Origin: an uncultured Phocaeicola sp.
GTDB lineage: Bacteria > Bacteroidota > Bacteroidia > Bacteroidales > Bacteroidaceae
NCBI GenBank assembly: GCA_947626525.1
Contig: CANQSM010000023.1
Location: forward strand, 1-39,645
Direction of reading: 5' to 3'
Length of the DNA stretch: 39,645 bases
The position numbers and the translations under genes were made by a program. Of the stretch, positions 15,415-38,191 are shown one piece after another. The notes beneath the pieces were generated by a model that had not been told where the DNA came from, searched no databases, and saw nothing but the letters and a program-made list of their open reading frames with translations. Position 1 is the first letter of the stretch; each line of letters begins with the position of its first letter.

Positions 15415-16893
15415 ATGAAGAACATGCAATTCTTTGCTGTGGATTTAGGAGCAACCAGCGGCAGAACCATCCTAGGTACCTTATCGGAAGGTAAACTGGA
15501 TTTGAGAGAGTTAACTCGCTTCCCCAATAACATTATCGAAACCGGAGGTCATTTCTATTGGGACATCTATGCCCTATACCTCGAAATCATCAAAGGGCTG
15601 AAAGTTGTAGCCCAAGAAAGCATTGAGATTCAATCCATCGGTATCGACACATGGGGTGTGGATTTTGTCTTTACCGGTAAGGACGGAGCTTTGCTCCGCA
15701 ATCCCTATTGTTACAGAGATCCCCATACGGTAGGGGCTCCGGAAGAATATTTTACCCACATTTCACGTGAAAGAGTATATGAAATCACAGGGATACAAAT
15801 CATGAATTTCAATTCACTGTTCCAACTTTATACCCTACATCGTGATAAATGTTCGGCCCTTGAAGCTGCCGACAAGATACTTTTCATGCCAGATGCGCTA
15901 TCGTATATGCTCACGGGCAATATGGTCACGGAATATACCATTGCATCCACTTCGCAAATATTAAATCCGCGTACAAAACGTTTTGAAAAAGAATTGCTTG
16001 ATGTGGTAGACGTGAAAGAAGAACAATTCGGCCGTTTTGTTTTTCCAGGTGAAAAAATCGGTGTATTAAGTAAAGATGTACAGAAGTTAACCGGATTAGG
16101 TGAAATCCCGGTTATTGCCGTTGCCGGTCACGATACGGCCTCCGCCGTAGCGGCCGTTCCTGCACGGAATGCACAATTCGCTTACCTGAGTTCTGGAACT
16201 TGGTCGCTCATGGGCATTGAAGTAAAAGATGCCATCATTAATAAAGAAAGCTTCGACAAAAACTTCACCAATGAAGGAGGTGTGGAAGGAACCACCCGTT
16301 TCCTTAAAAATATCTGCGGCATGTGGTTACTGGAACGTTGCCGCAAAGAGTGGGAAGCCACTAACAATTATTCATATCCGGAACTGATTGAAGCCGCTCT
16401 GGCTGTCAAGGCTTTCCGAAGCCTTATCAATCCGGACGCTCCCTGCTTTGCCAACCCCGTTTCCATGATTGAAGCCATACGTCACTATTGCAAAGAAACG
16501 GGACAACCCGAACCTGAGACTTACGGAGAAATAACCCGTTGTATCTTTGACAGTCTGGCACTGCGTTACCGTCAAGTATTCGGCTATATGCAGAATATGG
16601 CTCCGTTCAAGATAGAAAAGCTGCATGTTATCGGTGGAGGTTCACGTAATAACTTGCTGAATCAATTTACATGCAACGCTGTAGGAATACCCGTAACAGC
16701 GGGGCCCTCAGAAGGAACAGCCATCGGCAATATCATGTTGCAGGCCAAAACCTCCGGATTGGTTCACAATATCCAGGAGATGAGAAGCCTAATCAGCTCT
16801 TCCATCGAACTTGCCAATTTTGTGCCTGAACATCCGCAAGAATGGGACGACGCATATCAGACTTACTTAAAATATTACAGGGAGGACATTTAA
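15415..16893 (+). CDS. rhaK: L-rhamnulokinase
   Basis: 492 residues, FGGY-family sugar kinase phosphorylating L-rhamnulose to L-rhamnulose 1-phosphate in the cytoplasm. The N-terminus has the ATPase-fold signature FAVDLGATSGRTILGTL. IDTWGVDFVF, PVIAVAGHDTASAVAAVP and the adenosine motif HVIGGGSRNNLLNQF follow in order. Identity as a rhamnulokinase rather than another FGGY kinase is secured by the isomerase, permease and aldolase downstream. It is the first gene of the operon, with rhaA 76 bases later. Confidence 0.95.
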   Translation: MKNMQFFAVDLGATSGRTILGTLSEGKLDLRELTRFPNNIIETGGHFYWDIYALYLEIIKGLKVVAQESIEIQSIGIDTWGVDFVFTGKDGALLRNPYCYRDPHTVGAPEEYFTHISRERVYEITGIQIMNFNSLFQLYTLHRDKCSALEAADKILFMPDALSYMLTGNMVTEYTIASTSQILNPRTKRFEKELLDVVDVKEEQFGRFVFPGEKIGVLSKDVQKLTGLGEIPVIAVAGHDTASAVAAVPARNAQFAYLSSGTWSLMGIEVKDAIINKESFDKNFTNEGGVEGTTRFLKNICGMWLLERCRKEWEATNNYSYPELIEAALAVKAFRSLINPDAPCFANPVSMIEAIRHYCKETGQPEPETYGEITRCIFDSLALRYRQVFGYMQNMAPFKIEKLHVIGGGSRNNLLNQFTCNAVGIPVTAGPSEGTAIGNIMLQAKTSGLVHNIQEMRSLISSSIELANFVPEHPQEWDDAYQTYLKYYREDI

Positions 16894-16969
16894 GCCTTCA
16901 ACGAATGAAAAAATGATTCGCAATTAAGAAGCAAACAAAATAAATACTAACTCAATAAATTGAATTATC

Positions 16970-18223
16970 ATGAAAGAAGAATTGATCAAAAAGGCGTATG
17001 ACATTGCCAAAGAACGCTACGCAGCCCTTGGCGTAAACACAGACAAGGTACTGGATACTCTCCAGAACATTCAAATATCCATGCATTGCTGGCAAACCGA
17101 TGATGTGATTGGTTTCGAACCGAAAGCAGGCGCTTTATCAGGCGGAATACAGACTACCGGAAACTATCCGGGCAAAGCACGGAACATCGATGAAGTGCGC
17201 AAAGATCTGGAATTTGCCATGTCGTTGCTACCAGCCAAACAACGTGTCAACCTCCACGAAATCTACGGTGATTTCCAAGGCAAGTTCGTTGACCGCGACC
17301 AATGCTCCATCGAACTGTTCAAAAGCTGGATGGAGTGGGCCGACGCACAAGGAATCAAGCTGGATTTCAACTCTACGTCTTTCTCTCACCCGAAAAGTGG
17401 GAACCTCTCTCTCTCCAACCCGGACAAAGGTATCCGTGATTTCTGGATTGAGCATACAAAACGCTGCCGCGAAATAGCCGATGAAATCGGCAAGCACCAA
17501 GGCGACACCTGCTATATGAACCTTTGGGTACACGACGGAAGCAAGGATATTACTCTGAACCGTATGAAATACCGTGAACTATTCAACGATTCACTCGATC
17601 AGATATTTGCTGTGAAATACGACCACATGAAGACCGGTCTGGAAAGCAAAGTTTTCGGTATCGGACTGGAGCATTATACAGTAGGTTCCAACGAATTCTG
17701 CATGGGCTATGCTACCAAGCATCAGACTTACTTGACCATCGACACCGGACACTATCATCCGACAGAAGTGGCTGCCGACAAGGTTTCGTCCGCCCTGCTT
17801 TTCGTTCCGGGACTCATCTTGCACGTAAGCCGTCCTATCCGTTGGGATTCCGACCATGTCACCTTGATGGATGACGCTACTACTGAACTGTTCCAGGAAC
17901 TCGTTCGCTGCGACGCACTCGGCCGTACCGCCATTGCACTCGATTATTTCGATGCTTCCATCAACCGTATAGGCGCTTACGTTATCGGTACCCGTGCCGC
18001 ACAGAAGAGCCTGTTACGTGCATTGCTCGAACCGTTGGCTACCTTGCGTAAATATGAAGCTGAAGAAAAAGGATTCCAACGCCTTGCCTTGCTCGAAGAG
18101 GCCAAAGCATTGCCGTGGAACGCTGTATGGGATATGTTCTGCTTGAAGAACAATGTACCTGTAGGCGAAGAGTTCATCCCGGAAATTGAGAAATACGAAG
18201 CGGAAGTTACTTCCAAAAGATAA
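16970..18223 (+). CDS. rhaA: L-rhamnose isomerase
   Basis: 417 residues; interconverts L-rhamnose and L-rhamnulose with divalent metal in a TIM barrel. Early MHCWQTDDVIGFEP, then HEIYGDFQGKFVDRDQ, NLWVHDGSKDI and TIDTGHYHPTEVAADKVS contain the expected acidic and histidine ligands. Length matches the family (about 415-420). It is the second gene of the operon. Confidence 0.97.
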   Translation: MKEELIKKAYDIAKERYAALGVNTDKVLDTLQNIQISMHCWQTDDVIGFEPKAGALSGGIQTTGNYPGKARNIDEVRKDLEFAMSLLPAKQRVNLHEIYGDFQGKFVDRDQCSIELFKSWMEWADAQGIKLDFNSTSFSHPKSGNLSLSNPDKGIRDFWIEHTKRCREIADEIGKHQGDTCYMNLWVHDGSKDITLNRMKYRELFNDSLDQIFAVKYDHMKTGLESKVFGIGLEHYTVGSNEFCMGYATKHQTYLTIDTGHYHPTEVAADKVSSALLFVPGLILHVSRPIRWDSDHVTLMDDATTELFQELVRCDALGRTAIALDYFDASINRIGAYVIGTRAAQKSLLRALLEPLATLRKYEAEEKGFQRLALLEEAKALPWNAVWDMFCLKNNVPVGEEFIPEIEKYEAEVTSKR

Positions 18224-18308
18224 TGATTAGCTTGTCTATAAAAGAAATAGGTGGGAAAAACAGGTTCCCATCCTATTTCCCGGACAACTATTATGAAACA
18301 TAGAAATT

Positions 18309-19340
18309 ATGGAAATCATTATAGGATTATTGATTATTGCCATCGGAAGCTTCGGGCAAAGCAGTTCTTATGTACCCATCAATAAAATAAAACAATGGAG
18401 TTGGGAAAGTTTCTGGTTGATTCAGGGCGCATTCGCATGGATTGTTTTCCCGTTACTCGGTGCCCTGCTGGCCATTCCCGAAGGATATACACTGTTCGAC
18501 TTATGGAGTGAGGGCGGCGCATCCACCTCCATCATATTCGGAGTTTTATGGGGTATTGGCGGACTGACATTCGGATTAGGCATGCGCTACCTGGGAGTAG
18601 CTCTCGGACAAAGTATCGGTATGGGAACCTGTTCCGCTTTCGGAACAATTCTACCTCCTTTAATGGCCGGTAACGATTTATTCCACGGAAAAGGACTGTT
18701 ACTTTTAATCGGTGTCTGCATCACTTTAGCCGGTATTGCCGTGATTGGATATGCGGGAAGCCTCCGCAGCAAGAACATGACGGAAGAAGAAAAGAAAGCC
18801 GCCATTAAAGACTTTGCACTGACTAAGGGTTTGATTGTAGCGTTCTTGGCCGGAGCCATGAGTGCCTGCTTCAATTTAGGATTGGAAGGAGGAAAGGAAA
18901 TACAACAGGTGGCGTTAGCTAATGGAGTAGCTCCACTTTATGCCGGACTTCCGGTAATCTTTCTCGTCACGTTTGGCGGATTCCTGACAAACGCCGCTTA
19001 TTGTATCCAGCAAAATATTAAAAACGGCACAGGTAAAGAGTATTTCAGCGTACCAAGCAATGTGTTCGTGAGCAATATTTTGTTCTGTGCTTTGGCCGGC
19101 GTGTTGTGGTATTCTCAATTCTTCGGACTGGCTATGGGAAAAAGTTTTCTGCCGGAGGACTCTATCCTTTATGCTTTCTCGTGGAGTATACTGATGTCAC
19201 TCAATGTCATCTTCTCCAATGTATGGGGAATCATTCTTAAAGAATGGAAAGGAGTGAAACCAAGTACTATCACTGTATTAATCATCGGATTACTAATCCT
19301 TATATTATCCATCATCATTGTGTCGATTGCGCAACAGTAA
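18309..19340 (+). CDS. rhaT: L-rhamnose/proton symporter
   Basis: 343 residues with about ten hydrophobic segments from the first residues (MEIIIGLLIIAIGSFGQSSS) to the last (VLIIGLLILILSIIIVSIAQ). The fold is the drug/metabolite-transporter type used by RhaT. Signature-like GFGLGMRYLGVALGQSIGMG (here starting TFGLGMRYLG) and the large central charged loop (LRSKNMTEEEKKAAIKD) are consistent. It brings L-rhamnose across the inner membrane. It sits 85 bases after rhaA and 23 before rhaD. Confidence 0.93.
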   Translation: MEIIIGLLIIAIGSFGQSSSYVPINKIKQWSWESFWLIQGAFAWIVFPLLGALLAIPEGYTLFDLWSEGGASTSIIFGVLWGIGGLTFGLGMRYLGVALGQSIGMGTCSAFGTILPPLMAGNDLFHGKGLLLLIGVCITLAGIAVIGYAGSLRSKNMTEEEKKAAIKDFALTKGLIVAFLAGAMSACFNLGLEGGKEIQQVALANGVAPLYAGLPVIFLVTFGGFLTNAAYCIQQNIKNGTGKEYFSVPSNVFVSNILFCALAGVLWYSQFFGLAMGKSFLPEDSILYAFSWSILMSLNVIFSNVWGIILKEWKGVKPSTITVLIIGLLILILSIIIVSIAQQ

Positions 19341-19363
19341 CTTATTAAAAACAACAATAAAAC

Positions 19364-20173
19364 ATGAAATCTATCTTAGATAATCGTCCGGCACTCGCCA
19401 AAGAGGTGAATAAAGTAGCCGAAGTAGCCGGATACTTATGGCAAAAGGGATGGGCCGAACGCAACGGGGGAAACATCACGGTTAACATTACCGAATTTGT
19501 AGATGATGAAATCCGCCAAATGCCCGCTATCAGTGAAGTGAAACCTATCGGTACAACTTTACCGAATTTAAAGGGGTGCTATTTTTATTGCAAAGGGACC
19601 AACATGCGTATGCGCGACTTGGCACGCTGGCCCATGGAAAACGGATCGATTATCCGTATTCTTGATGACTGCGCCCATTATGTCATTATTGCCGACAATC
19701 CGGTACGTCCCACTTCGGAACTCCCGTCACATCTGAGTGTACACAATTACCTCATCGGTAAGGGCTCGCCATACAAAGCATCTGTCCATACACATCCCAT
19801 CGAACTGATTGCTTTGACTCACAGTAAGAAATATCTCGAAAAGGATGTGGCAACCAGAATGCTATGGAGTATGATTCCAGAGACAAAAGCTTTCTGTCCA
19901 CGAGGCTTGGGTATCATACCTTACAAATTGCCAAGTTCTGTGGAACTGGCCGATGCGACCATTAAGGAATTGGAAGACTACGATGTGGTAATGTGGGAAA
20001 AACACGGCGTATTTGCTGTTGACTGCGATGTCATGCAGGCTTTCGACCAGATTGATGTATTGAATAAATCCGCTTTAATCTACATTGCGGCCAAAAACAT
20101 GGGATTCGAGCCGGAAGGTATGAGTGATGAACAAATGAAAGAAATGAGTGTAGCATTCAATTTACCTAAATAA
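19364..20173 (+). CDS. rhaD: L-rhamnulose-1-phosphate aldolase
   Basis: 269 residues, class II zinc aldolase splitting L-rhamnulose 1-phosphate into dihydroxyacetone phosphate and L-lactaldehyde. GWAERNGGNITVNIT forms the phosphate-binding start. The metal ligands are in ASVHTHPIELIAL, with a further histidine in VMWEKHGVFAV. It ends the operon, with a terminator 20 bases later. No lactaldehyde reductase or RhaR regulator follows here. Confidence 0.95.
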   Translation: MKSILDNRPALAKEVNKVAEVAGYLWQKGWAERNGGNITVNITEFVDDEIRQMPAISEVKPIGTTLPNLKGCYFYCKGTNMRMRDLARWPMENGSIIRILDDCAHYVIIADNPVRPTSELPSHLSVHNYLIGKGSPYKASVHTHPIELIALTHSKKYLEKDVATRMLWSMIPETKAFCPRGLGIIPYKLPSSVELADATIKELEDYDVVMWEKHGVFAVDCDVMQAFDQIDVLNKSALIYIAAKNMGFEPEGMSDEQMKEMSVAFNLPK

Positions 20174-20866: not shown

Positions 20867-23800
20867 TTATTTCAGGTCAATCAGCATGTATTTTATTCGC
20901 TGACGACGCCAGGTGTATACTACATGTATCTTTCCGTCCTTGCCTTGTATGATACTCGGATAAGAGTATTGGCTTATCGGACTTTCTTCCAGTGTCAGTT
21001 TGTGTGTCCAGTGGATGCCGTCGTCTGATACGGCGAGGCTCAATGGGGTGCGGGAACCTTTCGGGGTGCCGGGCAGGGTTTCAAAATTGTTATATACCAA
21101 TGCATGCCGTCCGTCTTGCAAGGTCACTGCGTCCGTGCCGGAATTATTGTTCTCGATATCCAGCAAGGTCACTTTGCTCCAAGTGTCACCGTTGTCACTG
21201 CTCCAGCTTGTGGCGATTTTTGCGTTGCGTGTACGGCAAAGCACTTGCAGGCGTCCGTCCTTGTGGCGTAGGATGCTCGGTTGGATGGCATAGATGGGTT
21301 GAGCTCCTTCTCCTTGAATGGCTTCTCCGCCTTCCATGTCATCTTCTGCTTTCGTTCCGGCTTTTCTTAATTGGGTGGGAATATTCCATTCCGCTTCTAC
21401 CGGACCTACTTTGCGCCATGTCTTTCCGTTGTCGTCCGAGATTTCGAAATGGATACGCCAGCCTTCTTTTCCTTCTGTACTGCTGGGACAGATAATACGT
21501 CCGTTGATGTATTCCGGTTTATTCTTTATGGGTCCCAGGAAGCCTTTTGGAAGAGCTTCGCGTTTGCTCCATGTTTTGCCTCCGTCATTAGAGCGTACAA
21601 GCCAACCGCTCCAGTCGCCTACACTCAGTCCTATTTTATAGAAGAGTAAGATTTCATTCTTGCCGGGAATCTGGAACAATACGGGGTTCCAGCACGCTTT
21701 GCGGTGTGCCTGGGCTACATTTCCTTTGAAGGTGGAAGCCACCGGACCTGCGCTGGCCGGAGTGGTTTCCGCAGTGATTCCTGCAAGTGCCGCATCCGGG
21801 TCGTTGAGGCTGAATACACCGTCGCCCGCCAGATAAGGCGCACTCCATTCCGTGGCTCCTTTCGGCTTGCGGCATACCCAAATGCAGCAGTTCGGGTTGC
21901 GCTCTTTGGTGCCACCGAAAAAAGCGGCTACCAAATCTCCGTTTTTCAGCTCCACAATGGTCGCGCCGTGGCATTCCGGGAACGAAGCTTTTTCGTATAG
22001 AAACTCGTCTGTGAGGATTCCTTCACGTTCCTTTCCAATGGATGGGTCGAATGGGATGTCGATATGGTAAGTGCCTGAAACGGCTTTCCATATAGTGCCT
22101 TTTGCGTCACGGCGGACAAAGGTGAAGTCCGGGTCGTTTACAGCTTTTTCGTCAGACGTGGGCAGGTATACCAAAGCTGTGGTGTTGCAAGGTATCGTGA
22201 TGTCCCAGACAAGCCGGTTTCCTTTCCGTTTCCAGTAGCTTGCCATTTCACCGTATAAAGTTTGGTGTGTGGCATTTACGTGGCCCAGTTCTTGGATGGA
22301 GAAATCCGGTTTCAGCATGATTTCTTTGTAACCGGGTTGTGCCGGATTGAATCCTGCTAAATCTCTGAAATACCATGTCAACAAATCGCCGAGAATCATT
22401 ACGTGGTTCAAACTGTTCATTTTGCGGCTGGCCGTGTCTCCGTTCCATAGTTCCCATATAGCTGTGGCTCCCTTTTCAATCATGTAGCCATAGCTTGGGT
22501 AGGTTTTCTGGCTTGCCAGCAGGAGGGCGATGTCGCCCCGTCCGATGCGAGTCAGTTCGCTCATAAGCCAGTTCATACCAATCACACCACAGCTGATATG
22601 TCCTTTATAACGATCAATGATGGTGGTGATGAGATTTTTCTCCACTTCGGCGCAGTAAGCTTCAGGTACCATGTCGAATGCCAAAGGCAACAGATTTGCG
22701 GTAACGGTATTATTTCCGTAGAAGATGCTGTCCGGATAGAGATAATGGGGTGTCTTAACCTGTGAAGTTCCTTTTTTCACGGTCAGGAAGTACTTATTGA
22801 AACATTCCTTTATCTGTTCCGCATCTTTGTCATACGCGAGGGCTTCACTCTCCAATCCCAGCAGACGGGCAAACTTCACCAATAGTTTGGACATTTTGTA
22901 GTAGTAAGCCGTAGCAATCAGTTGTCCATCCGTTTTGCGGGCGGGATCTTGACTGTGAATCAGTTCCGGAGACTCAGGCGGCATGCACCAGTCGCCAAAC
23001 TTGTCGGCGGTGATGATTCCTTCTTTCGAAGTATATTCGCTGCGTATGTGGTACAGCCATTTCTTGATGGCTTCATAATTTTTGCGGATGGGTTCTATGT
23101 TGCCAAACTGTTCGTATAGCATGTTGCATACTACGGGTAGTGTGGACGACCAGGTCATTTCCGAAGTGTAATAGTTGTAATAGGCTGGACAGATGTCGGG
23201 GATGCAACCGTCTTCGCGTTGCGCTTCGCGCATGTCATCGGTCCATTTGGCATACATGTTTCCGTTGTTGAACATAAAGCTCTCGCCCCAAGTGCCCATG
23301 GCATGGTCGCCCGTCCAAGGTTGCCGTTCGTCACGCTGCGGACAGTCGAGCGGAACACCTTTGTAGTTGCTGGAGATACCCCACCAGGCATTTCGGAAGA
23401 TATGATTCATGATATCGTTAGAGCATTCGAACGTACCATTGTTCTCGAAGTTATCGTAAATGACTTCGGCCACGAGGTCTTCCGCTTTCAGGTCTTTGTA
23501 ACCGGTCACTTCGGCATATTGGAATCCGTGGTAAGAGAAGCGTGAACTCCATGAGGTATTGTTCTCTTTGCCGTTGCAAATGTAGTAATCGGTACTTTGG
23601 CTGTGGCGCAGGTTCTCCACGTCAAGCTCTGTACCATCGTTCATGACCCGCTCGGCATAGCGAATGCGGATGGTGTCGCCTGCTGCCGTATTGCGTATGT
23701 TGAGGCGAATCCAGCCGGCCGTGTTTTGTCCGAAGTCAATCATATATCGGTCACCGTATTGTTTGAACGTGATTGGTTTCAAAGTCTGCATCACTTTCAT

Positions 23801-24826
23801 GTTGGGGGCGGTATTTCCACGGAGTGTACCGTAAGGCAGTGACACGCGTTGAGCATGCAACCATTTGGAGTCGTTGTAACCGGGTTTTGTCCAGTCGCCG
23901 AGTTCCATGCGCGCATCGTAAATTTCTCCATCGTATTCGTTGTTGCTACGGATAGGGCCTTGTGCGGTAAGACGCCATTTTTCATCGCTGCTAATACGCT
24001 GTATGCTTCCATCAGTGTATTCGATAATCAGATTCAACCGTAATTTGGGATAACCGAATGTGGGGATTTTATAGGGTTTGTAGTTCTGGCGCATAGTATA
24101 AAAACGCCCGTTGCCCAATGTTACTCCGATGGCATTGTTCGCATTGTTTCCGGTTAACTGTTCGGTCACATCAAATGAATTGTAGAGAACCGTACGTCGG
24201 TAATCGCTTGGAGCAGGAGCCAGCACTTGGTCACCTATACGTTGCCCGTTGATAAAAAGTTCGTACATACCCAGACCACTGAGGTGTACTGTAGCTCGTT
24301 TTATTTCTTTGGGTTGGGTTTTGAATTCCGTACGTAGATAGCGTGAACTCATTCGGCTGTGCGAGTCTTCCCGATCCCATTCAAAAGGAGCATCCCAGCC
24401 AATCCAGCGTCCACCCCAATGGATTTCGCCTAAAATTCCCATGCCCCATTCGGCAGGTTCGCTCCAGTTGCTTTCTCCTTTGGTCGTATATACTTTGACT
24501 TTCCAGTAACAACGTTGGTTGCTTTTTAATTTTTTACCTTGATAAGGTACCCAGACGGATTGCTCGGAATCCACTTTTCCCGAATTCCATAAATCTCCTT
24601 CACCGGCAGCCAGTTTTTCCGGAGAAGAAGCTACCAGAATCTGATAGGCTGTCTGCATTACTCCTCGGTCTGTCGACTGAATTATCCAGCTTAGACGCGG
24701 ATGTTGATTCTCCACGCTGAGCGGACGTTCCATCTGCTCCGTGCGAAGCAGTGTTACGTTCACGGTTGCATGGAGAGTGAATGAGAGGAATAAGACACTT
24801 AAAAATAAACTTATTCTTTGTTTCAT
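20867..24826 (-). CDS. GH78 alpha-L-rhamnosidase fused to a sialidase-like (BNR) domain
   Basis: 1319 residues with a signal peptide (LFLSVLFLSFTLHATV). Residues about 25-900 are GH78: N-terminal sandwich domains, the (alpha/alpha)6 barrel with general-acid region DCPQRDERQPWTGDHAMGTW (Glu500), and the probable base Glu792 in ATAIWELWNGD. Residues about 935-1319 form a sialidase-like beta-propeller. It starts ECHGATIVELKNGDLVAAFF and has four Asp-box-like motifs: SNDGGKTW (1079), SDDNGKTW (1130), SSDNGDTW (1209) and SDDGIHW (1267). No FRIP motif of true GH33 sialidases is seen. One protein may therefore remove L-rhamnose and then the acid sugar beneath it, for example Kdo, to which RG-II side chain C links rhamnose. 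That reading is inference. It is the last gene of the operon, 182 bases after the GH140 gene. Confidence 0.9.
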   Translation of the reverse strand: MKQRISLFLSVLFLSFTLHATVNVTLLRTEQMERPLSVENQHPRLSWIIQSTDRGVMQTAYQILVASSPEKLAAGEGDLWNSGKVDSEQSVWVPYQGKKLKSNQRCYWKVKVYTTKGESNWSEPAEWGMGILGEIHWGGRWIGWDAPFEWDREDSHSRMSSRYLRTEFKTQPKEIKRATVHLSGLGMYELFINGQRIGDQVLAPAPSDYRRTVLYNSFDVTEQLTGNNANNAIGVTLGNGRFYTMRQNYKPYKIPTFGYPKLRLNLIIEYTDGSIQRISSDEKWRLTAQGPIRSNNEYDGEIYDARMELGDWTKPGYNDSKWLHAQRVSLPYGTLRGNTAPNMKVMQTLKPITFKQYGDRYMIDFGQNTAGWIRLNIRNTAAGDTIRIRYAERVMNDGTELDVENLRHSQSTDYYICNGKENNTSWSSRFSYHGFQYAEVTGYKDLKAEDLVAEVIYDNFENNGTFECSNDIMNHIFRNAWWGISSNYKGVPLDCPQRDERQPWTGDHAMGTWGESFMFNNGNMYAKWTDDMREAQREDGCIPDICPAYYNYYTSEMTWSSTLPVVCNMLYEQFGNIEPIRKNYEAIKKWLYHIRSEYTSKEGIITADKFGDWCMPPESPELIHSQDPARKTDGQLIATAYYYKMSKLLVKFARLLGLESEALAYDKDAEQIKECFNKYFLTVKKGTSQVKTPHYLYPDSIFYGNNTVTANLLPLAFDMVPEAYCAEVEKNLITTIIDRYKGHISCGVIGMNWLMSELTRIGRGDIALLLASQKTYPSYGYMIEKGATAIWELWNGDTASRKMNSLNHVMILGDLLTWYFRDLAGFNPAQPGYKEIMLKPDFSIQELGHVNATHQTLYGEMASYWKRKGNRLVWDITIPCNTTALVYLPTSDEKAVNDPDFTFVRRDAKGTIWKAVSGTYHIDIPFDPSIGKEREGILTDEFLYEKASFPECHGATIVELKNGDLVAAFFGGTKERNPNCCIWVCRKPKGATEWSAPYLAGDGVFSLNDPDAALAGITAETTPASAGPVASTFKGNVAQAHRKACWNPVLFQIPGKNEILLFYKIGLSVGDWSGWLVRSNDGGKTWSKREALPKGFLGPIKNKPEYINGRIICPSSTEGKEGWRIHFEISDDNGKTWRKVGPVEAEWNIPTQLRKAGTKAEDDMEGGEAIQGEGAQPIYAIQPSILRHKDGRLQVLCRTRNAKIATSWSSDNGDTWSKVTLLDIENNNSGTDAVTLQDGRHALVYNNFETLPGTPKGSRTPLSLAVSDDGIHWTHKLTLEESPISQYSYPSIIQGKDGKIHVVYTWRRQRIKYMLIDLK

Positions 24827-25008: not shown

Positions 25009-26451
25009 TTAATATTTAGTAGGAATACTTTTCTGATCCTTCGTGATGTAATTCTTAGACGCATCCACTGCAATCAGTACTCGGTCGTTACCGGATCCAA
25101 AGGCTCCATCGTAATGGAACGGCAGAACTTTGCTGTCGAATTCTCCAGCATATTCCAGTGCTCCGTCGGTGACATTGTACCACCATACATTCTTCTTGGC
25201 TCCGCTGATTTTACTCAAGTCAAGTTTCATAGGACGATTGGTGTAGTTGTAAACCAACAAATAGTCGTTCCCTCTTGTGGCGATTACTCGGTCGTATCGG
25301 ATACCGTTTTCATCAGCAATGATACTTTGGTCGGGGATGCGTTCAAAGAATGGGAAAGTAAGCATCAGATTCTTTAAATATTGCATTTGATTGAAACCTG
25401 GGTCTTTCATTGCTTCAATCCATGTCTTGACAGCTCCGTAACCGCCATCGTTGGCTTCTTTTTTCATTTGCATGATAGAGTTGTGTCCGTAAGTGTGTCC
25501 GAATGCTCCGGCAAATACTGACCAGTAAGCATAGCGGCGCACATCGGGAGCTTTCCACCACGGTTCGCTGGGGTCGTGAAGCCCTTGTGGAATTTCCTCA
25601 TAACTTGGCTCTGCATCCAAGATGGGTTTCATCGGTTTCATGGCGAGACCGGCTTCCACATAACGCCAGTTATCTTCCGCTACAGCAGCTTCGGCAGTGT
25701 TGTCTCCATCGCCGCGAGTTTGGTCGTAACGGCGGTGACCGCTTTGGAACATATTGAAATCAAGCCATTCCGCATTATGAAACCAGTAAATGGAAGAGGT
25801 TCTTCCGAATGGGTGGTAAGTCATCAAGTGGTTTTTGTCGATGGATTTGATGGTGCGTGCCATGGTATTCCATTGGTCAGGGTTGATGTCTCCTTTTACG
25901 TCTCCACCCATAATCCAGATAATGTTGGGAGAGTCTTTGTAGCGTTCGGCCAGGAACTTTCCGTAAGCTTCAGCTTCTTTTACACTCATCAGTCCGGATT
26001 TTACCAAGTTACCCCATATACATACCATACCGATGTAGATGCCATTCTGTTCGGCTTTCTTAACGATATAGTCCATGTGATCCCAATACCCGTAGACACC
26101 TTTTTTATTGATATCCTTGAAGTTGAATCCATCGGGGTGGGAATATTGTCCGTAGAAGTTGATAGCCGGAACTCCGTTGACGGTTTGAACCTGCACTACA
26201 TTATATCCAGCTTTGCGACAGTTGTTCAAGTAGTAGCTGGCTTCATCGCGGTTTAGTTTCTCAGGAAGTAACCATCCGGTTTCGCCCATCCAGAAGAACG
26301 GGGTACCGTTTTCATGTTGTAAATAGCGTCCGTTCTCGGAAACTTTCAAATTACCGTTTTCCCAAGGTTGGTAGATTTGAGGCTTCGGATCGGCTACTAA
26401 GTTTCCTGCGAGAAACAGGAAAAACATAGAAAATAGTGCAAATTTTTTCAT
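25009..26451 (-). CDS. GH140-like (DUF4038) apiosidase-type glycoside hydrolase
   Basis: 480 residues with a signal peptide (LFSMFFLFLAGNLVADP). Residues about 30-370 form a TIM barrel of the DUF4038/GH140 type, opening with NGRYLQHENGTPFFWMGETG. Likely catalytic residues are Asp184 in IIWIMGGDVKGD and Glu281 in PILDAEPSYEEIP. A C-terminal beta domain follows (about 385-475; ATRGNDYLLVYNYTNRPM), as in DUF4038 proteins. The characterised GH140 enzyme in Bacteroides thetaiotaomicron cleaves apiose from rhamnogalacturonan II, which fits the neighbouring genes. Exact specificity is not proven. It lies 32 bases after the GH95 gene. Confidence 0.85.
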   Translation of the reverse strand: MKKFALFSMFFLFLAGNLVADPKPQIYQPWENGNLKVSENGRYLQHENGTPFFWMGETGWLLPEKLNRDEASYYLNNCRKAGYNVVQVQTVNGVPAINFYGQYSHPDGFNFKDINKKGVYGYWDHMDYIVKKAEQNGIYIGMVCIWGNLVKSGLMSVKEAEAYGKFLAERYKDSPNIIWIMGGDVKGDINPDQWNTMARTIKSIDKNHLMTYHPFGRTSSIYWFHNAEWLDFNMFQSGHRRYDQTRGDGDNTAEAAVAEDNWRYVEAGLAMKPMKPILDAEPSYEEIPQGLHDPSEPWWKAPDVRRYAYWSVFAGAFGHTYGHNSIMQMKKEANDGGYGAVKTWIEAMKDPGFNQMQYLKNLMLTFPFFERIPDQSIIADENGIRYDRVIATRGNDYLLVYNYTNRPMKLDLSKISGAKKNVWWYNVTDGALEYAGEFDSKVLPFHYDGAFGSGNDRVLIAVDASKNYITKDQKSIPTKY

Positions 26452-26483: not shown

Positions 26484-28985
26484 TTATTTTCCGATGATTG
26501 TGTAGGTTTGTCCGGCTTGGGTCGGCAAATCGTACAAATATGTCTTTTTCAATTCCACTTTGTTGAGTTTGGCTTCTTTGTTGATAAGCGGTTTGGCTAC
26601 TTGCGGTACTTCATAAAGCGGATTCGGGTTCGTTCCTTTTGCTGACTTCAATCCTTTTCCCGATAAACGGTTCAGGGAGCGCAACCGGCAATTTCCGCCT
26701 TTGTGTGAAGTGATCGCTAACTTAGATACTTTTCCGTTTTTCCAACTCATATCTATTTCAAATCCTCCGCGTGCCATCAGACCTTTTATTTCTCCTTCTT
26801 TCCAGATAGTCGGCAGGGCTGGGAGCAGATAGATAAATCCGTCGTAGCTTTGCATCAACATTTCAGCAATGCCGGCAGTACAACCGAAGTTGCCGTCGAT
26901 TTGGAAAGGTGGGTGTGCATCGAACAGGTTTGGATAAGTTCCTCCTTTTTTCTTCTCGTTGCGTACCAGTGAAAGTTGGTCAGTTATGAGTTTATAGGCG
27001 TGGTCTCCATCGAGGAGGCGTGCCCAAAGGCACACTTTCCATCCCATACTCCAGCCTGTTGAAGGATCGCCCCGGTGAATCAGGGAGGTGCGTGCGGCAT
27101 CGAACAGTTCCGGTGTACGGTACGGAGAGATCTGATTGCTTGGAAACAGACCATAAAGATGTGACACGTGGCGGTGTATATCCTTGGGGTTGTCCCAGTC
27201 GTACATCCATTCTTGTAACTGCCCCCAGCGCCCGATTTGCATCGGTGCCATTTCTTTTAGACGATCTTTCAAGTGTCCGGCATATTTCTGGTCGGTATTC
27301 AGTATTTGGGAAGCTGTGATAATCTGATTCCATAAATCAAAAATCAACTGGTTGTCCATCGTACAACCGGCAGCCGTACTGGCTTTATTGTTACTTCCCG
27401 CATGAGTGTTTTCAGGAGAGTTGCTCGGGCAGGCTACCAGCCAGCCATGTTCCGGATCTTTCACCATTGTTTCGTCAAAGAATAGTCCGGCGCCTCTCAT
27501 AATCGGATAAATTTCCCGTAGGAATTCCTTGTCACCGGTATAAAGATAATGTTCCCACAGATGGCGGCACAACCAGGCACCTCCCGAAGCCCACATGCCC
27601 GATGGAGCATTGTCGATAGCTCCGGTAACACGCCATATATCGGTATTGTGGTGTAATACCCATCCATTGGAGCCATACATTACCTTGGCACTTTCCTTTC
27701 CTGTTTCGCTTACTTCTTTGATGAGGCGGAACAGTGGTTCATTTAAGACACTCAGATTTGTTACTTCCGAAGGCCAGTAGTTCATTTCAAGATTGATGTT
27801 GCAGGTGTACTTGCAGTCCCACGATGGAAAGAGCTTGTCATTCCAGATACCTTGCAAGTTGGCAGCCTGTCCGCTCGGTTGAGAGCAGGAAATGAGCAAA
27901 TAGCGTCCGAACTTGAAATAAATTGCTACCAAAAAAGCATCGTTGGTTTCCTTGAAACGCTCTATCCGTTTGTCTGTGGTAATATCCGGATATGGGTCTT
28001 TTCCCAAATAGAGAGAGGCTGTATTGATTTGTTTCTGATAAAAATCCGTATGTGATTTTTTGGCTTCAACATAAGGATGGAGAAGTGCCTTCTCCAGATA
28101 TCCTTTCGCCCGTGCGATAAAATCACCGGTTATATCCTGATAATTATTGAAGTTTGTTCCAATAGAAGTGTACACAATGGCTTCATCGGCTCCTTCTACT
28201 GACAACACTCCATCTCGGCACGTTGTTGTGCCACCTTGTGTTTTGGCCGTCACACGTCCCTGAAATTCCACTTTACCTTTCAGACCTTCGTGAAGAGATG
28301 AAATGCCGGAGAGGGTAATGTCACTCCCTTCGGAGGTAATGACTACATCTTGGTGAGGAGAGGTCAGCGTTACATTAAAAGTAATCTTTCCCGGTTGGTC
28401 GGCTGTGATGCGTGTAATTATCACTTGGTCGGTAAAAGAGGTGAACGTTTCACGTTGATAGGTGACACCGTCTACTTGGTAACGTACGATGGCCCGGGCT
28501 GAATCGAGGTTCAGTTCTCTGTAATAATGCTCATAACGAGCATGTCCGGGGAAATTCAGGCGCAGTTCCCCAAAAGTTTGATAAGGCATTCCCGAATTCG
28601 TACTGGCTTTTACATGCTTCGTCGCCATTGTTTGGGCTTCGAGGTATTTGCCGGCAAATACCAGTTCCCGTATTTTCGGAATCCATTCCAAGGCTTCCGG
28701 GTTCGGATTGTTGTTGGGACGTCCGGCCCAGATTGTTTCTTCATTTAATTGAATCTGTTCGGCAGCCGGATTACCATAGAGCATGGCACCTAAACGGCCG
28801 TTGCCCAAAGGCAAGGCTTCCGTCCATACATGGGCGGGCTGGTCGTACCATAACTTATATTCTTGTGCTTTGGTTTGCAAAGGAAACAGAATTAAAGCCA
28901 TGCAACCTGTTAGAAATAGTTTTTTGATAATCATATGGAGTTGGGTATTAAAGTTTTCAGTTATTGGTTTTAGCTGGTCGTTCAT
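26484..28985 (-). CDS. GH95 alpha-L-fucosidase/alpha-L-galactosidase
   Basis: 833 residues as drawn, but the signal peptide (MIIKKLFLTGCMALILFPLQ) begins at Met18, ATG 28932-28934, which is the more likely start. The N-terminal beta domain starts LWYDQPAHVWTEALPLGNGR, typical of GH95. The (alpha/alpha)6 barrel has CNINLEMNYWPSEV (Asn396, Asn398), LQEWMYDWD (Glu592) and PPFQIDGNFG (Asp697). These match the paired asparagines, acid and base of characterised GH95 fucosidases. L-fucose and L-galactose differ little, and GH95 enzymes handle both. In an RG-II setting the L-galactose of side chain A is plausible. The esterase gene upstream stops 2 bases before Met1. Confidence 0.92.
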   Translation of the reverse strand: MNDQLKPITENFNTQLHMIIKKLFLTGCMALILFPLQTKAQEYKLWYDQPAHVWTEALPLGNGRLGAMLYGNPAAEQIQLNEETIWAGRPNNNPNPEALEWIPKIRELVFAGKYLEAQTMATKHVKASTNSGMPYQTFGELRLNFPGHARYEHYYRELNLDSARAIVRYQVDGVTYQRETFTSFTDQVIITRITADQPGKITFNVTLTSPHQDVVITSEGSDITLSGISSLHEGLKGKVEFQGRVTAKTQGGTTTCRDGVLSVEGADEAIVYTSIGTNFNNYQDITGDFIARAKGYLEKALLHPYVEAKKSHTDFYQKQINTASLYLGKDPYPDITTDKRIERFKETNDAFLVAIYFKFGRYLLISCSQPSGQAANLQGIWNDKLFPSWDCKYTCNINLEMNYWPSEVTNLSVLNEPLFRLIKEVSETGKESAKVMYGSNGWVLHHNTDIWRVTGAIDNAPSGMWASGGAWLCRHLWEHYLYTGDKEFLREIYPIMRGAGLFFDETMVKDPEHGWLVACPSNSPENTHAGSNNKASTAAGCTMDNQLIFDLWNQIITASQILNTDQKYAGHLKDRLKEMAPMQIGRWGQLQEWMYDWDNPKDIHRHVSHLYGLFPSNQISPYRTPELFDAARTSLIHRGDPSTGWSMGWKVCLWARLLDGDHAYKLITDQLSLVRNEKKKGGTYPNLFDAHPPFQIDGNFGCTAGIAEMLMQSYDGFIYLLPALPTIWKEGEIKGLMARGGFEIDMSWKNGKVSKLAITSHKGGNCRLRSLNRLSGKGLKSAKGTNPNPLYEVPQVAKPLINKEAKLNKVELKKTYLYDLPTQAGQTYTIIGK

Positions 28986-28987: not shown

Positions 28988-30943
28988 CTATTTTTGTTTT
29001 GGCTTTTCAGCTTTACGTTTGTCCGTATAGGCCTTGAATAATTGTTTCCAGTTGCGACCGTTATTATTCAGGTATTGTTCACACTTAGTTTTGTATATTT
29101 CGAAAACCTGTGAGATTGCTTTCATACTTTTACATTCCAAAGCTTCTTCGCGTGCTTGTTTCAGGTATCCCTCCAATATTTTGGCCTCCGCGTCGGTCAA
29201 ATCGGGTACAATGGCGTAATATCCTTTCATGGTGAAAGCCACTTTTCCTACGGTATAAGCGTCGTATACGGCTTCTACCTGTTCGGGAGTCAATACACGA
29301 TTCAAGTCTTTCAGCAAACGTTGATGTACAGAAGCCGGAATACTCTTGTCCGCCATCATTTCCCGTTCTACTTTGTTTAGTGTTTTTCCAGTAACTTTGT
29401 CTTTTTCTGGAATGATAATATACGGATGCGTGTTGTGCCAGTCACGTACGGCGCGACGGTGGTTGTATACAGCTGTTGTGGCGATGTTGGCTACTTTTTC
29501 ATCGGTCAGATTCAGGGTGGCGATGATTTCCTGTGCTTTTTTCAATACCGATTCATCTGCAGCAGCGTTACGAATCATTGCTTTTCCGAAATATTGTTCA
29601 AGCTTGTTGACAGAGCGGATAGCGTTCTCGGGCATTTTCTCACCTTTTTTGCCAAAGCTGTACAGGTTTTCGTAAGGCTCTATGGTTACTTTTTCTTCAT
29701 CCAATTTACTTTTGTCAAGATGAAATTCCTTAATAAAGAAATCGTAAACGGCATTACGTTTGTTCGGGCCGAAATCGTGTCCTTCTTTGGGTAAATGTAC
29801 GTTTGTTACTTTATCCTGAGCGTTGTAGAAACCATAAACGTTTTGCAAATATGGGTATTCAAGGGTCGGAACACTAGCGGTCCAGTCTTTCCCATCCGAG
29901 ATAACGCATAGGGGTTTGGGAGCGAACAGAGCTGCCAGTTCTGCATTGCACGTGCCGCCTCCAGCCAGTGTAATGGGCATTCCGCTTTCGCAGGGACATC
30001 CTCCGTCAAAATGAGAGGCCAGACTTACTGTAGGGCAGGCAGCTGTGTAACGGTCATCAAGAACGGTGAGCAATACGGTTTGTGTACCCCCTCCGGAACC
30101 CCCATTTACACCGATACGGCTGGTATCTACGTCTTTACGTTTGATCATGTAGTCAAGAATGGAGATACCGTTCATCGCTTGGATGATTTGGGCAAAGCTG
30201 GTGTTGTGGCTGATGGAACTTACTTGAAGTGCTGATTCTCCCCAGCCAAACAGATCGTAATCCACGCAGATAGCTCCCATGCGTGCCAAAGTAGCCATGC
30301 GCTGTTGTTGATCTTTACGGTAGCGTCCGTCACCGAAGTGTCCGTTCGGACAGATAATCAGTGCATGTTGCCCTTTTGACTTCGGTATATAGATGGAACC
30401 GCATACGTAGAGTCCGGGTAGTGTTTCCATGGCAAAATTTTGTATGGTGTATCCATCGTATTTGCGTATTTTGGAAAGAATAGGTTCAGAGTTGACACGT
30501 TGTGCCAAAATCGGGTCGATATGCAGGCGTTCGCGTACTTCTTTTTTGAGTACGGCTTTGCGTTGTTCGAAAGAACTTTGGTCATGATAAAGGCTCTTCA
30601 AATAGGTTATCAGTTTCTCACCATCGGCTTCCGTACGGCGAGGATATTCGTAATTTTTTAGTTTGTACAGTTTATCGTTCTGTTTCACAAACTTAAAATC
30701 GAACGGAGCCAACACGTTTGTGAGCGATTCTTCCACGGAATAGGGGCGTATGCGAAAGTCAGCATACGGCAACACTTTTCCTACGGTGTCAATGTCATAT
30801 TTCAGTTTTACCTGAAACCGGTCGGCAATTTCATTTAATACTTCGCCCAGCGGGCGTGAAAATTGATTTTCATACGTGTTCTGTGCTTGTGTGGCAGCAG
30901 CAGCTGTCATGAACAAGAGTGTAAAAGTAAGTTTTTTCATCAT
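28988..30943 (-). CDS. STN domain-alpha/beta-hydrolase (esterase)-DUF3826 fusion
   Basis: 651 residues with a signal peptide (LTFTLLFMTAAAATQAQ). Residues about 22-97 resemble an STN (secretin/TonB N-terminal) domain: FSRPLGEVLNEIADRFQVKL, a YSVEESLTNVL repeat and KLYKLKNY. Residues about 130-410 are an alpha/beta-hydrolase of the acetylxylan-esterase/dienelactone type, with nucleophile Ser283 in GVNGGSGGGTQ, a probable acid Asp350 in VISDGKDW and His389 in KEGHDFG. Residues about 477-640 match DUF3826 (LTDEKVANIATTAVYNHRRA; LTPEQVEAVYDAYTVGKVAF). The hydrolase probably removes an acetyl or methyl ester from pectin; the ester is not known. STN on an enzyme is unusual. It lies between the GH78 gene (22 bases) and GH95. 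Confidence 0.82.
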   Translation of the reverse strand: MMKKLTFTLLFMTAAAATQAQNTYENQFSRPLGEVLNEIADRFQVKLKYDIDTVGKVLPYADFRIRPYSVEESLTNVLAPFDFKFVKQNDKLYKLKNYEYPRRTEADGEKLITYLKSLYHDQSSFEQRKAVLKKEVRERLHIDPILAQRVNSEPILSKIRKYDGYTIQNFAMETLPGLYVCGSIYIPKSKGQHALIICPNGHFGDGRYRKDQQQRMATLARMGAICVDYDLFGWGESALQVSSISHNTSFAQIIQAMNGISILDYMIKRKDVDTSRIGVNGGSGGGTQTVLLTVLDDRYTAACPTVSLASHFDGGCPCESGMPITLAGGGTCNAELAALFAPKPLCVISDGKDWTASVPTLEYPYLQNVYGFYNAQDKVTNVHLPKEGHDFGPNKRNAVYDFFIKEFHLDKSKLDEEKVTIEPYENLYSFGKKGEKMPENAIRSVNKLEQYFGKAMIRNAAADESVLKKAQEIIATLNLTDEKVANIATTAVYNHRRAVRDWHNTHPYIIIPEKDKVTGKTLNKVEREMMADKSIPASVHQRLLKDLNRVLTPEQVEAVYDAYTVGKVAFTMKGYYAIVPDLTDAEAKILEGYLKQAREEALECKSMKAISQVFEIYKTKCEQYLNNNGRNWKQLFKAYTDKRKAEKPKQK

Positions 30944-30965: not shown

Positions 30966-33737
30966 TTAAAAATTCTTGTTAAAGGTATAACTACCACTTT
31001 GTATTCGATGAGGCTCTTTGTCCCCCGGCAGATACACATTTGCCGTACAGTTTGTCGGTATGGTTACCTTTAAGGTGAACAAGCCGTTTTTGCGTGTCCA
31101 TGCCACAGCTATTTTACCGTATAGCGTTTCGTAAGAAGCCGTCAGGTTTTTCAGGTCACCTACCGTTTGTGGGCGGATTGTCAGGTGTTGATAACCTTTT
31201 TCCTGTTCGTTCGACTGGATACCGGCTAAGGAGTTGAAGAACCATTCGTCTATCTGTCCCATCATGAAGTGATTCCAAGAAGAGCCTTGTCGCGGGTCCC
31301 ATTGCTCAGTAAGCGTCGTGGCTCCGAATTTCAACTGGAAACCGTATCCTGGTGCTTCTTCATGATTGTGCATGGTGTACATCAGTTCGTTCAATCCGTT
31401 GCGTGCTAAAGTTTGGAACAGATAGCGGTTACCTACATCACCGGTAGTGAGCCGTGTTCCATGTTGCTTAATGTCTTTTACCAAATTATCGAGTACAGCC
31501 TGACGTTTACCTTCCGGTACCATGCCCAGAAACAGAGGTAGAGCATTGCTGCATTGGCTTCCCGTACTATATTGATTGGTTTCCGCATTGAAATATTTTT
31601 GATTGAAAGCCTCTTTTACTTCTTTTCCCAAGTGGGTGAAATAAGCTACATCGTATTGATTGCCTACCATTTTGGCCGCTTGACTAATGTAGCAAATGTC
31701 CATATAATAGTGAGCGGAAGCTACCAGTCCTACTGGAGTGTTCCGAGAGAATCCGGCTCTGAAATTTCCGTAATCGTACCAGTCACCTAACCCGAAATCA
31801 ATCAGATGGTCTTTGGCACGGCCTGACAGGTAATCTACGTACGAACGCATGTTTTGGTAGTATTGGTGAATCAGCGAATCATCTCCATACGTTTCGTAAT
31901 ACATGAACGGTACGATGATGAACGTGCTTCCCCATTCAGGTGATTCAGCAAATACGTCCATACCCGGCCCTTCGAAAATGACGTATTGGGGAGCCGTGGT
32001 CGGAATCATGCCGTCGGCACGTTGTGAATCGGCTATGTCCTGCATCATCTTTGGGTAATAAGAGGTGAGGTCGTAATTATAAAGCAGTCCCGGGCCATTC
32101 AGATGATCCTGTTCCAGCCATCCCAGCTTTTCGCGGTGCGGACAATCGGTAAACACTGCTTGCATATTGCTTCGTACTGCATTGTGGATCAGATTGTGTG
32201 CGCTGGTAAAAATGGCGTTTGAACATTCGAACGAGCTGACGTCTGCTGTCGAGTTGTGCACGAAACAGGATTGAATCTGTTGGATAACAGGTAATTTGTC
32301 AGGATTCTTCTGGCCTTTTAATACAGCTCCTTCCACTTGTATGTACCGGAATCCGTAATAGGAAAAACGTGGATGCCAGGTTTCATTTTTGTTTCCTTTC
32401 AGCGTATAGGTATAGTAATGTTGGCGTCCGGTTTGCTGTTGGTTGACTGCGTTGCAACTGTCCACGACAGATTCTGCCACCACCAGAGTGATTTGTTGTC
32501 CTCGTTTGCCCCGTACTGTAATTTCCGGAAATCCGGCCAAGTTCTGTCCCATATCCAATAAGATGGCCGATGGGTCAACCTTGCGTTTGGTCGCTTTAGT
32601 TGCTTTCTCCACCTCTTCTGGTATGAGTTTGTGCGAACTTTTTATACCGTAGCGTTTCATGATTTTTACCGGAGGAGCAAGTTGCGGGCGAAGTTTACCT
32701 TTAGGTTTTTCTTGGATAACTACCGGTTTCCAGTGACTGTCATCGAATCCTGCCTTATTCCATCCTTCCTGTTCCATTCGGGCGTCATAGTCTTCTCCTC
32801 CGTAGAGCGTATTGAATGTCACGGGACTCAGGTCGTATTTCCAGCTCCTGTCCGACACAATCTCTTTAGTAGTGCCGTCCGTATAGCGTATCAGCATTTT
32901 GAAGAATAGGGTTTCCGGGCCGAAGCCTATTTTCAGCTTGCTGTATCTTCCACCGCCTACTACGTTGTAGAATCCGTTACCCAGCAGAACACCGATAGCG
33001 TTTTCGCCGTTTTTCAGCTTTTGAGTGACATCGAATGTATTATAATACACTGTCTTGTCGTAATCGCTCCATAAAGGAGTGAATTCTCCGTCGCCTACTT
33101 TTTCTCCATTCAAAGATAGCTCATAATGTCCCAGTCCGCAGACATAGACTGTCGCATCGGCAATTTGTCTGCAGACGTTGAATTCTTTTCTTAAGCAGAT
33201 GCTTCTCCAAGCTAAGGAGTCCACCTTGTCCCATGCCGCTTTCACTTCCGGTTTTTTGAATACACCGATGTGATAGTTGCGTCCGGTGGGGAGCTGGGCA
33301 GATTTCTGTGTAATGGCTCCGATCCATGACGCATTCAGGAATATCGCATCGGGTGCCAGACGGAATTCAGCTTCTTCGCTCCATTCGGAAGGGCGGTCTT
33401 GTTCATCCCACACCTTTACACGCCAGAAATAGCGGGTGAGAGGTTCCAAGGGTTGGCCTTGATACGGAACATGCTGGCTTTGAGAAGAGACTTCCTTTCC
33501 GCTTTCCCAGCGTAAAGTCTTTATTCCTTTTTCGAGGGTATACACCTCAATTTCATAGGCCGATTGCATGCAACCGTTTTCGCCTTGTAGTTGCCAGCCG
33601 AAGCGGGGGTGTCTGGTTACCAGTGCCAAGGGGTTTTGTATCATTTCACAAGTGCTTTTCGTCACGTTGATGCCTTGTGCTGTAAAGATCACCGCCCATG
33701 AAAAGAGTCCTATGGAAAAGAACTTTCTGAGATTCAT
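30966..33737 (-). CDS. GH78 alpha-L-rhamnosidase
   Basis: 923 residues with a signal peptide (IGLFSWAVIFTAQGI). N-terminal Ig-like and rhamnosidase-N domains (about 25-340; YFWRVKVWDEQDRPSEWSEE, VCGLGHYELSLNGEKVGDGE) precede a further beta-sandwich (about 350-490). The (alpha/alpha)6 barrel (about 500-830) has the general acid region DCPHREKLGWLEQDH (Glu536) and probable base Glu811 in GATTLTEQWDP. A C-terminal beta domain follows. It is a secreted inverting alpha-L-rhamnosidase, distinct from the fusion at 20867. Two GH78 enzymes in one operon imply rhamnose in two linkages. The gaps to its neighbours are 36 and 22 bases. Confidence 0.94.
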   Translation of the reverse strand: MNLRKFFSIGLFSWAVIFTAQGINVTKSTCEMIQNPLALVTRHPRFGWQLQGENGCMQSAYEIEVYTLEKGIKTLRWESGKEVSSQSQHVPYQGQPLEPLTRYFWRVKVWDEQDRPSEWSEEAEFRLAPDAIFLNASWIGAITQKSAQLPTGRNYHIGVFKKPEVKAAWDKVDSLAWRSICLRKEFNVCRQIADATVYVCGLGHYELSLNGEKVGDGEFTPLWSDYDKTVYYNTFDVTQKLKNGENAIGVLLGNGFYNVVGGGRYSKLKIGFGPETLFFKMLIRYTDGTTKEIVSDRSWKYDLSPVTFNTLYGGEDYDARMEQEGWNKAGFDDSHWKPVVIQEKPKGKLRPQLAPPVKIMKRYGIKSSHKLIPEEVEKATKATKRKVDPSAILLDMGQNLAGFPEITVRGKRGQQITLVVAESVVDSCNAVNQQQTGRQHYYTYTLKGNKNETWHPRFSYYGFRYIQVEGAVLKGQKNPDKLPVIQQIQSCFVHNSTADVSSFECSNAIFTSAHNLIHNAVRSNMQAVFTDCPHREKLGWLEQDHLNGPGLLYNYDLTSYYPKMMQDIADSQRADGMIPTTAPQYVIFEGPGMDVFAESPEWGSTFIIVPFMYYETYGDDSLIHQYYQNMRSYVDYLSGRAKDHLIDFGLGDWYDYGNFRAGFSRNTPVGLVASAHYYMDICYISQAAKMVGNQYDVAYFTHLGKEVKEAFNQKYFNAETNQYSTGSQCSNALPLFLGMVPEGKRQAVLDNLVKDIKQHGTRLTTGDVGNRYLFQTLARNGLNELMYTMHNHEEAPGYGFQLKFGATTLTEQWDPRQGSSWNHFMMGQIDEWFFNSLAGIQSNEQEKGYQHLTIRPQTVGDLKNLTASYETLYGKIAVAWTRKNGLFTLKVTIPTNCTANVYLPGDKEPHRIQSGSYTFNKNF

Positions 33738-36700: not shown

Positions 36701-37187
36701 TGGTAAATCCGTCGGGCACACGGTAGATGGGGAACAGCACTTCCGGATTGCTCCATGTATAACCGTCGGCAGAGGTCTGTAAGAAAGTGCAGGATGGCGG
36801 AATATGCTCGTCTACAGGATCGGAGAGGTAATGCATGTAGAACTTACCGTTCCAATAGGCCATCATCGGCTGGTGGTTGTAAGTCCATCCGTTTCCGTTG
36901 CTGGTATATGTTTTTTCTTTGTTTGAAAAGTCGCCTTTCCAATAATGCTGGGCAAGCGGGTAGCTTTTTTCATCCCATCCGTTTCCGTTGGTGGCATCGG
37001 GTTTGGCTCGATTGGCCCGCATAGTTTGGATGTTGTGTACCCCGACAACTGGTGAGAGTTGTCCGTCGTGTGCGTTAGGGTTCGAAAGTTTAGTTCCCGT
37101 ATAGTGGATTCTCTCCTGAGCGTTCAGGCCTGTCGCACCCATCCATCCGGCAGCTAGTAAAAGAAAGAATTTAGAGTAATAGTTCAT
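33774..37187 (-). CDS. Large two-catalytic-domain enzyme, GH142/GH143-like
   Basis: 1137 residues with a signal peptide (FFLLLAAGWMGATGLNAQ). Residues about 60-430 form a sialidase-like beta-propeller with Asp-box-like motifs (SADGYTW 139, SNGGNTW 315) and RWPLGISLSKDGLEY. Residues about 495-640 are a concanavalin/LamG-like sandwich (ELSVEFDLMAEQNDHGTLQI). Residues about 690-1085 are an (alpha/alpha)6 barrel (FSSWNPDALYNRYLVNLDKE, CEWDGAIWPFATAQTLTALA). This architecture and length resemble the RG-II enzyme of B. thetaiotaomicron that cleaves DHA (GH143) and beta-L-arabinofuranose (GH142) of side chain D. I recall this from the literature and did not check by alignment. If it is wrong, it remains a sialidase-like plus six-hairpin glycosidase fusion. 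Confidence 0.72.
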   Translation of the reverse strand: MNYYSKFFLLLAAGWMGATGLNAQERIHYTGTKLSNPNAHDGQLSPVVGVHNIQTMRANRAKPDATNGNGWDEKSYPLAQHYWKGDFSNKEKTYTSNGNGWTYNHQPMMAYWNGKFYMHYLSDPVDEHIPPSCTFLQTSADGYTWSNPEVLFPIYRVPDGFTKDGKIFAKNINAVMHQRVGFHVSKSGKLLAIGNYGIALYPKDDPNDGNGIGRVVREIKGDGTFGPIYFIYYNHAFNEKNTSFPYYKSSKDKAFRQACEEILADPLQRMQWVEEADREDPLIPLNKEYKAFCWYTLPDGRIACLWKHALTSISSNGGNTWAEPVERAKGFVNSNAKIWGQRLSDGTYATVYNPSEFRWPLGISLSKDGLEYTTLNLVHGDVPPMRYAGQYKSYGPQYVRGIQEGNGTPPDGDLWVTYSVNKEDMWVARIKVPVRQKASDHANENFADFKQLSDLTMWNLMSGVWAPVTLEQKDGKTWLTLSDKDPFFDAKVERKIPNTKELSVEFDLMAEQNDHGTLQIEFVDEDGTACARLDLTPEGEFRSKGGARYGRINLYEPGKTYHVKVEVSVANRNSTVYVDGKKAATRMLFAPVESIERIVFRTGERRHFPTIDTWADQYSDMQNPNREDPLAVYRIANVRSSSADIDGQAAVLKYKDFSHYAEQFNNMEDENIIQAIPNAQASEWMKENIPLFECPQKNFEEMYYYRWWSLRKHIKKTPVGYSMTEFLVDRSYADKYNLIACAIGHHIYESRWLRDPKYLNDIIHTWYRGNEGKPMNKMMKFSSWNPDALYNRYLVNLDKEFLTNMYNDLCEEYKRWEESHRLENGLYWQEDVQDGMEESISGGRRKQYARPTINSYMYGNAMALSTVATMLGKTEDAKLYAEKAASIKNLVESRLWNEKHQFFETMRGDTCAQVREAIGYIPWYFNLPSAGKYDEAWKQLNDEKGFSAPYGLTTAERRHPEFRSHGVGKCEWDGAIWPFATAQTLTALANYLNHTENPIVTDSTYFRQMELYVESQHHRGRPYIGEYLDEVTGYWLKGDQERSRYYNHSTFNDLMITGLVGLRPRADNTIEINPLIPDNKWDWFCLDNVLYHGHNLTILWDKNGDRYHQGKGLHILVDGKEVGHSETLSKLICPNVL

Positions 37188-38129: not shown

Positions 38130-38191
38130 TGTAGATTTAAAAATTAAATTGTTTCGCTCCAATAATCTTTGTCCCATCATAGTTCTCTTGA

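Follow-up and report, generated by a model that had tools for sequence, protein, structure and literature searches.

A rhamnosidase fused to a sialidase-like propeller in an uncultured Phocaeicola: a probable two-module exo-enzyme of rhamnogalacturonan II side chain C

The window analyzed here is a stretch of 39,645 nucleotides (contig CANQSM010000023.1) from an uncultured Phocaeicola sp. On its minus strand, a single open reading frame (20867-24826, ATG to stop) encodes a protein of 1319 residues that joins a complete glycoside hydrolase family 78 (GH78) rhamnosidase to a C-terminal sialidase-like propeller. The single frame and its Pfam domains bear out the architecture described in a first-pass annotation, which had also suggested that the fusion could remove rhamnose and then 3-deoxy-D-manno-octulosonic acid (Kdo) from side chain C of rhamnogalacturonan II (RG-II). 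We consider it probable that the protein is such a two-module exo-enzyme. It likely carries an N-terminal signal peptide, as judged by eye. The gene, its two parts and one codon taken up below are as follows.

20867..24826, minus strand: fusion of GH78 rhamnosidase and GH33-like BNR_2 propeller, 1319 residues (open reading frame call and Pfam)
22022..24826, minus strand: GH78 part and linker, residues 1-935, including Glu500 and Glu792 (Pfam and alignment)
20870..21994, minus strand: sialidase-like propeller, residues 945-1319, with His953, Glu975, Gln1182, Arg1198, Arg1259 and Tyr1289 (or Tyr1287) at the canonical site positions
21890..21892, minus strand: codon AAC for Asn979, a residue that is Asp in all 110 aligned relatives

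The N-terminal part has the full rhamnosidase domain set, with Pfam matches to Ig_Rha78A_N (25-132), Bac_rhamnosid_N (173-346), Bac_rhamnosid (359-457), Bac_rhamnosid6H (462-821) and Bac_rhamnosid_C (825-897). By hand count in a HMMER alignment, Glu500 and Glu792, the two GH78 residues named in the first-pass annotation, fall opposite chain residues 636 and 895 of 3w5m, its catalytic acid and base. The GH78 rhamnosidases 6i60 and 3w5m share the GH78 domains and both catalytic glutamates with the window protein, but these chains match its GH78 part only.

In the C-terminal part, BNR_2 is matched at residues 963-1302 over its whole length (profile positions 1-277 of 277, E 1e-82). A predicted model has the sialidase β-propeller fold typical of GH33, and distant sialidases were the sole matches in PDB sequence searches with the propeller. 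Of the 50 matches listed in the fold comparison, none is named PL27 or GH145, a listing that does not exclude either. Three of the four Asp boxes reported earlier are strict (1079, 1130 and 1209); the fourth, SDDGIHW near 1267, is degenerate by eye, being one residue short of the pattern. A loose box pattern occurs three times in the domain, as compared with a mean of 0.028 and a maximum of 2 in 2000 shuffles of the domain. No FRIP-like motif was found by a pattern search of the 1319-residue protein, as had been claimed. The GH33 exo-sialidases 1w8o and NanI (2bf6) resemble the propeller in its fold, Asp boxes, Tyr, and second and third triad arginines (Arg2 and Arg3), but the window propeller, at approximately 20% identity, has His for the FRIP Arg, Gln for Glu, and Glu aligned to the acid Asp.

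The site positions were paired by a corrected profile alignment to ten FRIP- or RVP-bearing domains (local E 1.3e-17 to 3.3e-21), with residue roles as known for NanB and 1eur. The ten reference domains come from genomes and have no known activity, although L149 among them has matches to solved sialidases, 1eur for instance; their ten rows, all taken from a single alignment, are interdependent. The propeller alignment and tree comprised 111 domains, that of the window plus those of 110 relatives, nine of the 119 loci supplied having been removed as identical duplicates or too short. His953, Glu975, Gln1182, Arg1198, Arg1259, Tyr1287 and Tyr1289 are invariant in all 111. Gln1182, Arg1198 and Tyr1289 lie opposite the GH33 Glu, Arg2 and the catalytic Tyr, respectively, in all ten rows. 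Arg1259 lies opposite Arg3 in seven, the three misses being the FRIP domains of L011, L012 and L090, and Glu975 lies opposite the acid Asp in seven and is one residue off in three, in a gapped loop. His953 lies opposite the FRIP Arg in ten of ten rows only with forced alignment extension, this end being unaligned in default profile runs. In single-sequence runs, which are weaker, the Tyr position was taken by Tyr1287 in five of ten, by Tyr1289 in two and by neither in three; an alignment to NanB concurs on Arg2 and Tyr1289. The arginine triad and Tyr/Glu pair that the first-pass annotation had proposed to look for are present in part: Tyr and two triad arginines are kept, whereas each of the 111 domains has His where FRIP has its Arg, and the Glu partner is replaced by Gln1182. 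The active site is unusual. An earlier profile alignment (E 8.6e-54) had placed Asn979 on the catalytic Asp, as if the window copy had lost its acid. We rejected this pairing: L160 and L154 had given the same domain, the earlier reference set held the propeller family itself because L012 was cut at the wrong place, and the corrected ten-domain set puts the Asp position at Glu975.

The neighboring genes from GH140 to GH43 share the strand of the fusion, and genes for a rhamnose kinase, isomerase, permease and aldolase flank its opposite side on the other strand.

25009..26451, minus strand: apiosidase-like gene (GH140)
26484..28985, minus strand: GH95 gene
28988..30943, minus strand: DUF3826 protein with a weak S9 match
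30966..33737, minus strand: second GH78, with no propeller fused
33774..37187, minus strand: BT1020-like GH142/GH143 protein (PDB 5mqr, 1893 bits)
37200..38213, minus strand: GH43 gene
15415..20173, plus strand: rhamnose catabolism (FGGY kinase, RhaA, RhaT, class II aldolase)

GH140, GH142 and GH143 are markers of RG-II breakdown. Passages of PMC7922503 describe GH142 and GH143 as co-occurring with other RG-II families. Across the 233 contigs of the window's genome, PF13088 has no matches besides this propeller and a portion of the BT1020-like protein, and the only other matches to the full protein are in the second GH78. Family matches to arginine biosynthesis, with an ArgR repressor, adjoin the rhamnose genes at 9706-15115. 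Relative to PDB 5mqr, the BT1020-like protein (33774-37187) carries approximately 30 additional residues at about 72-101, which close with a second NGNGW; a repeat analysis of the DNA reported no tandem repeat at this place.

The RG-II set of Bacteroides thetaiotaomicron, in the work of Ndeh from 2017, reportedly includes a GH78-GH33 protein at BT1013, which, by gene order, we take to be probably the RG-II Kdo hydrolase of GH33 in Bacteroides. Excerpts of published papers name rhamnosidases of GH78 and a Kdo hydrolase of GH33 for RG-II (PMC11214529), place the Kdo hydrolase under GH33 (PMC9120202), suggest that plant GH33 enzymes act on KDO or DHA (PMC6852159), and describe a pectin polysaccharide utilization locus of B. 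xylanisolvens XB1A with GH28, GH33, GH43 and GH78 (PMC4769552); an excerpt of PMC12282258 describes chains C and D and does not make plain which acid sugar lies in which. No primary paper on the RG-II Kdo enzyme was found among the papers searched, and a five-term search of the RG-II review PMC12168206 gave no match. The pairing of a rhamnosidase with a Kdo hydrolase seems to be known in outline. In view of this work, the window protein would most likely be an orthologue of a known bifunctional enzyme.

The BT1020-like propeller of genomes G128 and G218 matches 5mqr at about 100% identity across 202 residues. Their gene order is GH43, GH142/143, GH78, a gene for 445-460 residues and DUF3826, followed on the other strand by GH78-propeller, GH140, a gene for 400 residues and GH95. 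The propeller of their GH78 fusion is 76-79% identical to that of the window; the window copy differs from this probable BT1013-type system in having Asn979 and in a cluster confined to one strand. BT1019, the gene next to the BT1020-like one, was rejected as the orthologue because it is an unfused GH78. BT1020 (GH142/GH143), from the same cluster, pairs a sialidase-like propeller with a different glycosidase and matches PF13088 in part, but its propeller is mainly PF24067 and, according to passages of PMC6811678, GH143 cleaves 3-deoxy-D-lyxo-heptulosaric acid (Dha) and BT1020 acts on chain D.

Within the window's family, 16 of 61 genomes match most of the propeller, two of them weakly. A scan of named genomes returned at least 578 relatives, the best 80 of which were kept, a sample skewed to near relatives. 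GH78 lies in the same open frame as the propeller in 77 of these 80 (76 by tblastn, L106 by Pfam), some frames being cut by contig ends; L061 and L072 are standalone, and L090 is attached to a second sialidase-like propeller. In the available sequence, 62 of the 80 loci have GH140 or GH142/143, as do 42 of the 49 for which 20.5 kb or more is available. Of 158 Bacteroides genomes, 50 have the propeller (E up to 1e-20) and 43 have the GH143 propeller; 42 have both, eight the propeller only, one GH143 only (G156, a 51% match) and 107 neither. This co-occurrence is within a genome and does not prove a shared cluster, and its Fisher p is uncorrected for descent. Six of the eight propeller-only genomes have a distant paralogue alone, G114 has a standalone copy, and G072 has the RG-II type beside GH95 and GH140. 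The best propeller frame is 835-1418 residues long in 49 of the 50 genomes and 372 in G114. The GH78 fusions are not a single clade in the tree, where three standalone copies and three fused to GH33 branch among them.

The RG-II neighborhood, the sialidase fold with Tyr and two arginines, and the papers naming a GH33 Kdo hydrolase favor successive removal of rhamnose and Kdo, whereas the His and Gln substitutions and the relatives outside RG-II clusters do not. By homology, the GH78 module, via its two glutamates, would take off the terminal α-1,5-linked rhamnose, and the GH33-like module would next cut the Kdo, by then exposed, off the galacturonic acid backbone. Tyr1289 (or Tyr1287) would be the nucleophile, Arg1198 and Arg1259 would face the carboxylate, and Glu975 would serve as acid/base. 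The general base for Tyr is uncertain because the Tyr-activating Glu is replaced by Gln1182; a candidate is His953, in the place of the FRIP Arg.

Several observations weigh against this assignment. Three of the six canonical site positions are unlike GH33 in all 111 domains, and the window copy alone has Asn979, four residues past the putative acid Glu975, where the other 110 have Asp; the Asn could be genuine or an assembly error. GH140 and GH142/143 are both missing at 18 of the best 80 loci and at seven of the 49 with longer sequence. Ten Bacteroides genomes have a paralogue at 55-63% identity (51-53% by tblastn), with no GH140 or GH142/143 within 20 kb in the four clusters read (L167-L170), and G099, scored as having both, has the distant paralogue only, about 329 kb from its GH143. 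The L013 propeller is joined to a weakly matched melibiase-like domain and adjoins GH92; in L011, L012 and L090 the propeller precedes a fused FRIP-type sialidase domain; and standalone propellers exist (L061, L072 and L128), the one in L061 (9857-11098) having two upstream genes that match Glycos_transf_1 and Glycos_transf_2. Given these varied partners and contexts, Kdo specificity is not claimed for the whole propeller family. L072 (2126-3349) has upstream genes of sizes matching those of L061, and L012 lies near an SSF symporter. L167-L170 carry a second GH78-propeller type, with GH95 in three of four. The L168 cluster is pectin-like, with a TonB receptor, GH95, HAD, GH43, DUF4861, GH28 and SDR; that of L170, as far as its genes were scanned, has a TonB receptor, HAD, GH43 and DUF4861.

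One could envision the propeller as a recognition module without catalytic activity that anchors GH78 on RG-II side chains, as His for the FRIP Arg and Gln for Glu in every domain, together with Asn979 in the window copy, would allow. We think that this is unlikely: every one of the 111 domains keeps Tyr, Arg2, Arg3 and, at the acid position, Glu, seemingly more than binding needs, and the propeller also occurs standalone. Alternatively, the propeller might be a hydrolase or a lyase whose substrate is a different ulosonic acid or else a uronic acid. The altered site, the other fusion partners and contexts, and the L168 paralogue among GH28, GH43, DUF4861 and GH95 are consistent with this idea, but genome-level co-occurrence with GH143 argues against it, and Dha is already covered by the BT1020-like protein in the cluster, in view of the GH143 activity described in passages of PMC6811678; we regard it as doubtful too. 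An ordinary sialidase fused to a rhamnosidase would account for the fold and Tyr, but is highly improbable given the incomplete triad, the missing FRIP, Gln for Glu, and a plant-pectin gene neighborhood.

A broader and more tentative possibility is a separate ketosidase family that is built on the sialidase fold and founded by this propeller. Its site, changed to His/Glu/Gln, would rely on another base for the nucleophilic Tyr and be fitted to Kdo-type sugars, and the domain would have been redeployed in several contexts: in RG-II and other pectin clusters, beside glycosyltransferases, and joined to a FRIP sialidase. If the preferred assignment, rhamnose then Kdo removal, is correct, it would account for the successive cleavage of two linkages in RG-II side chain C by a single protein; and should the altered site prove genuine and active, it would reveal how a sialidase fold was adapted to Kdo.
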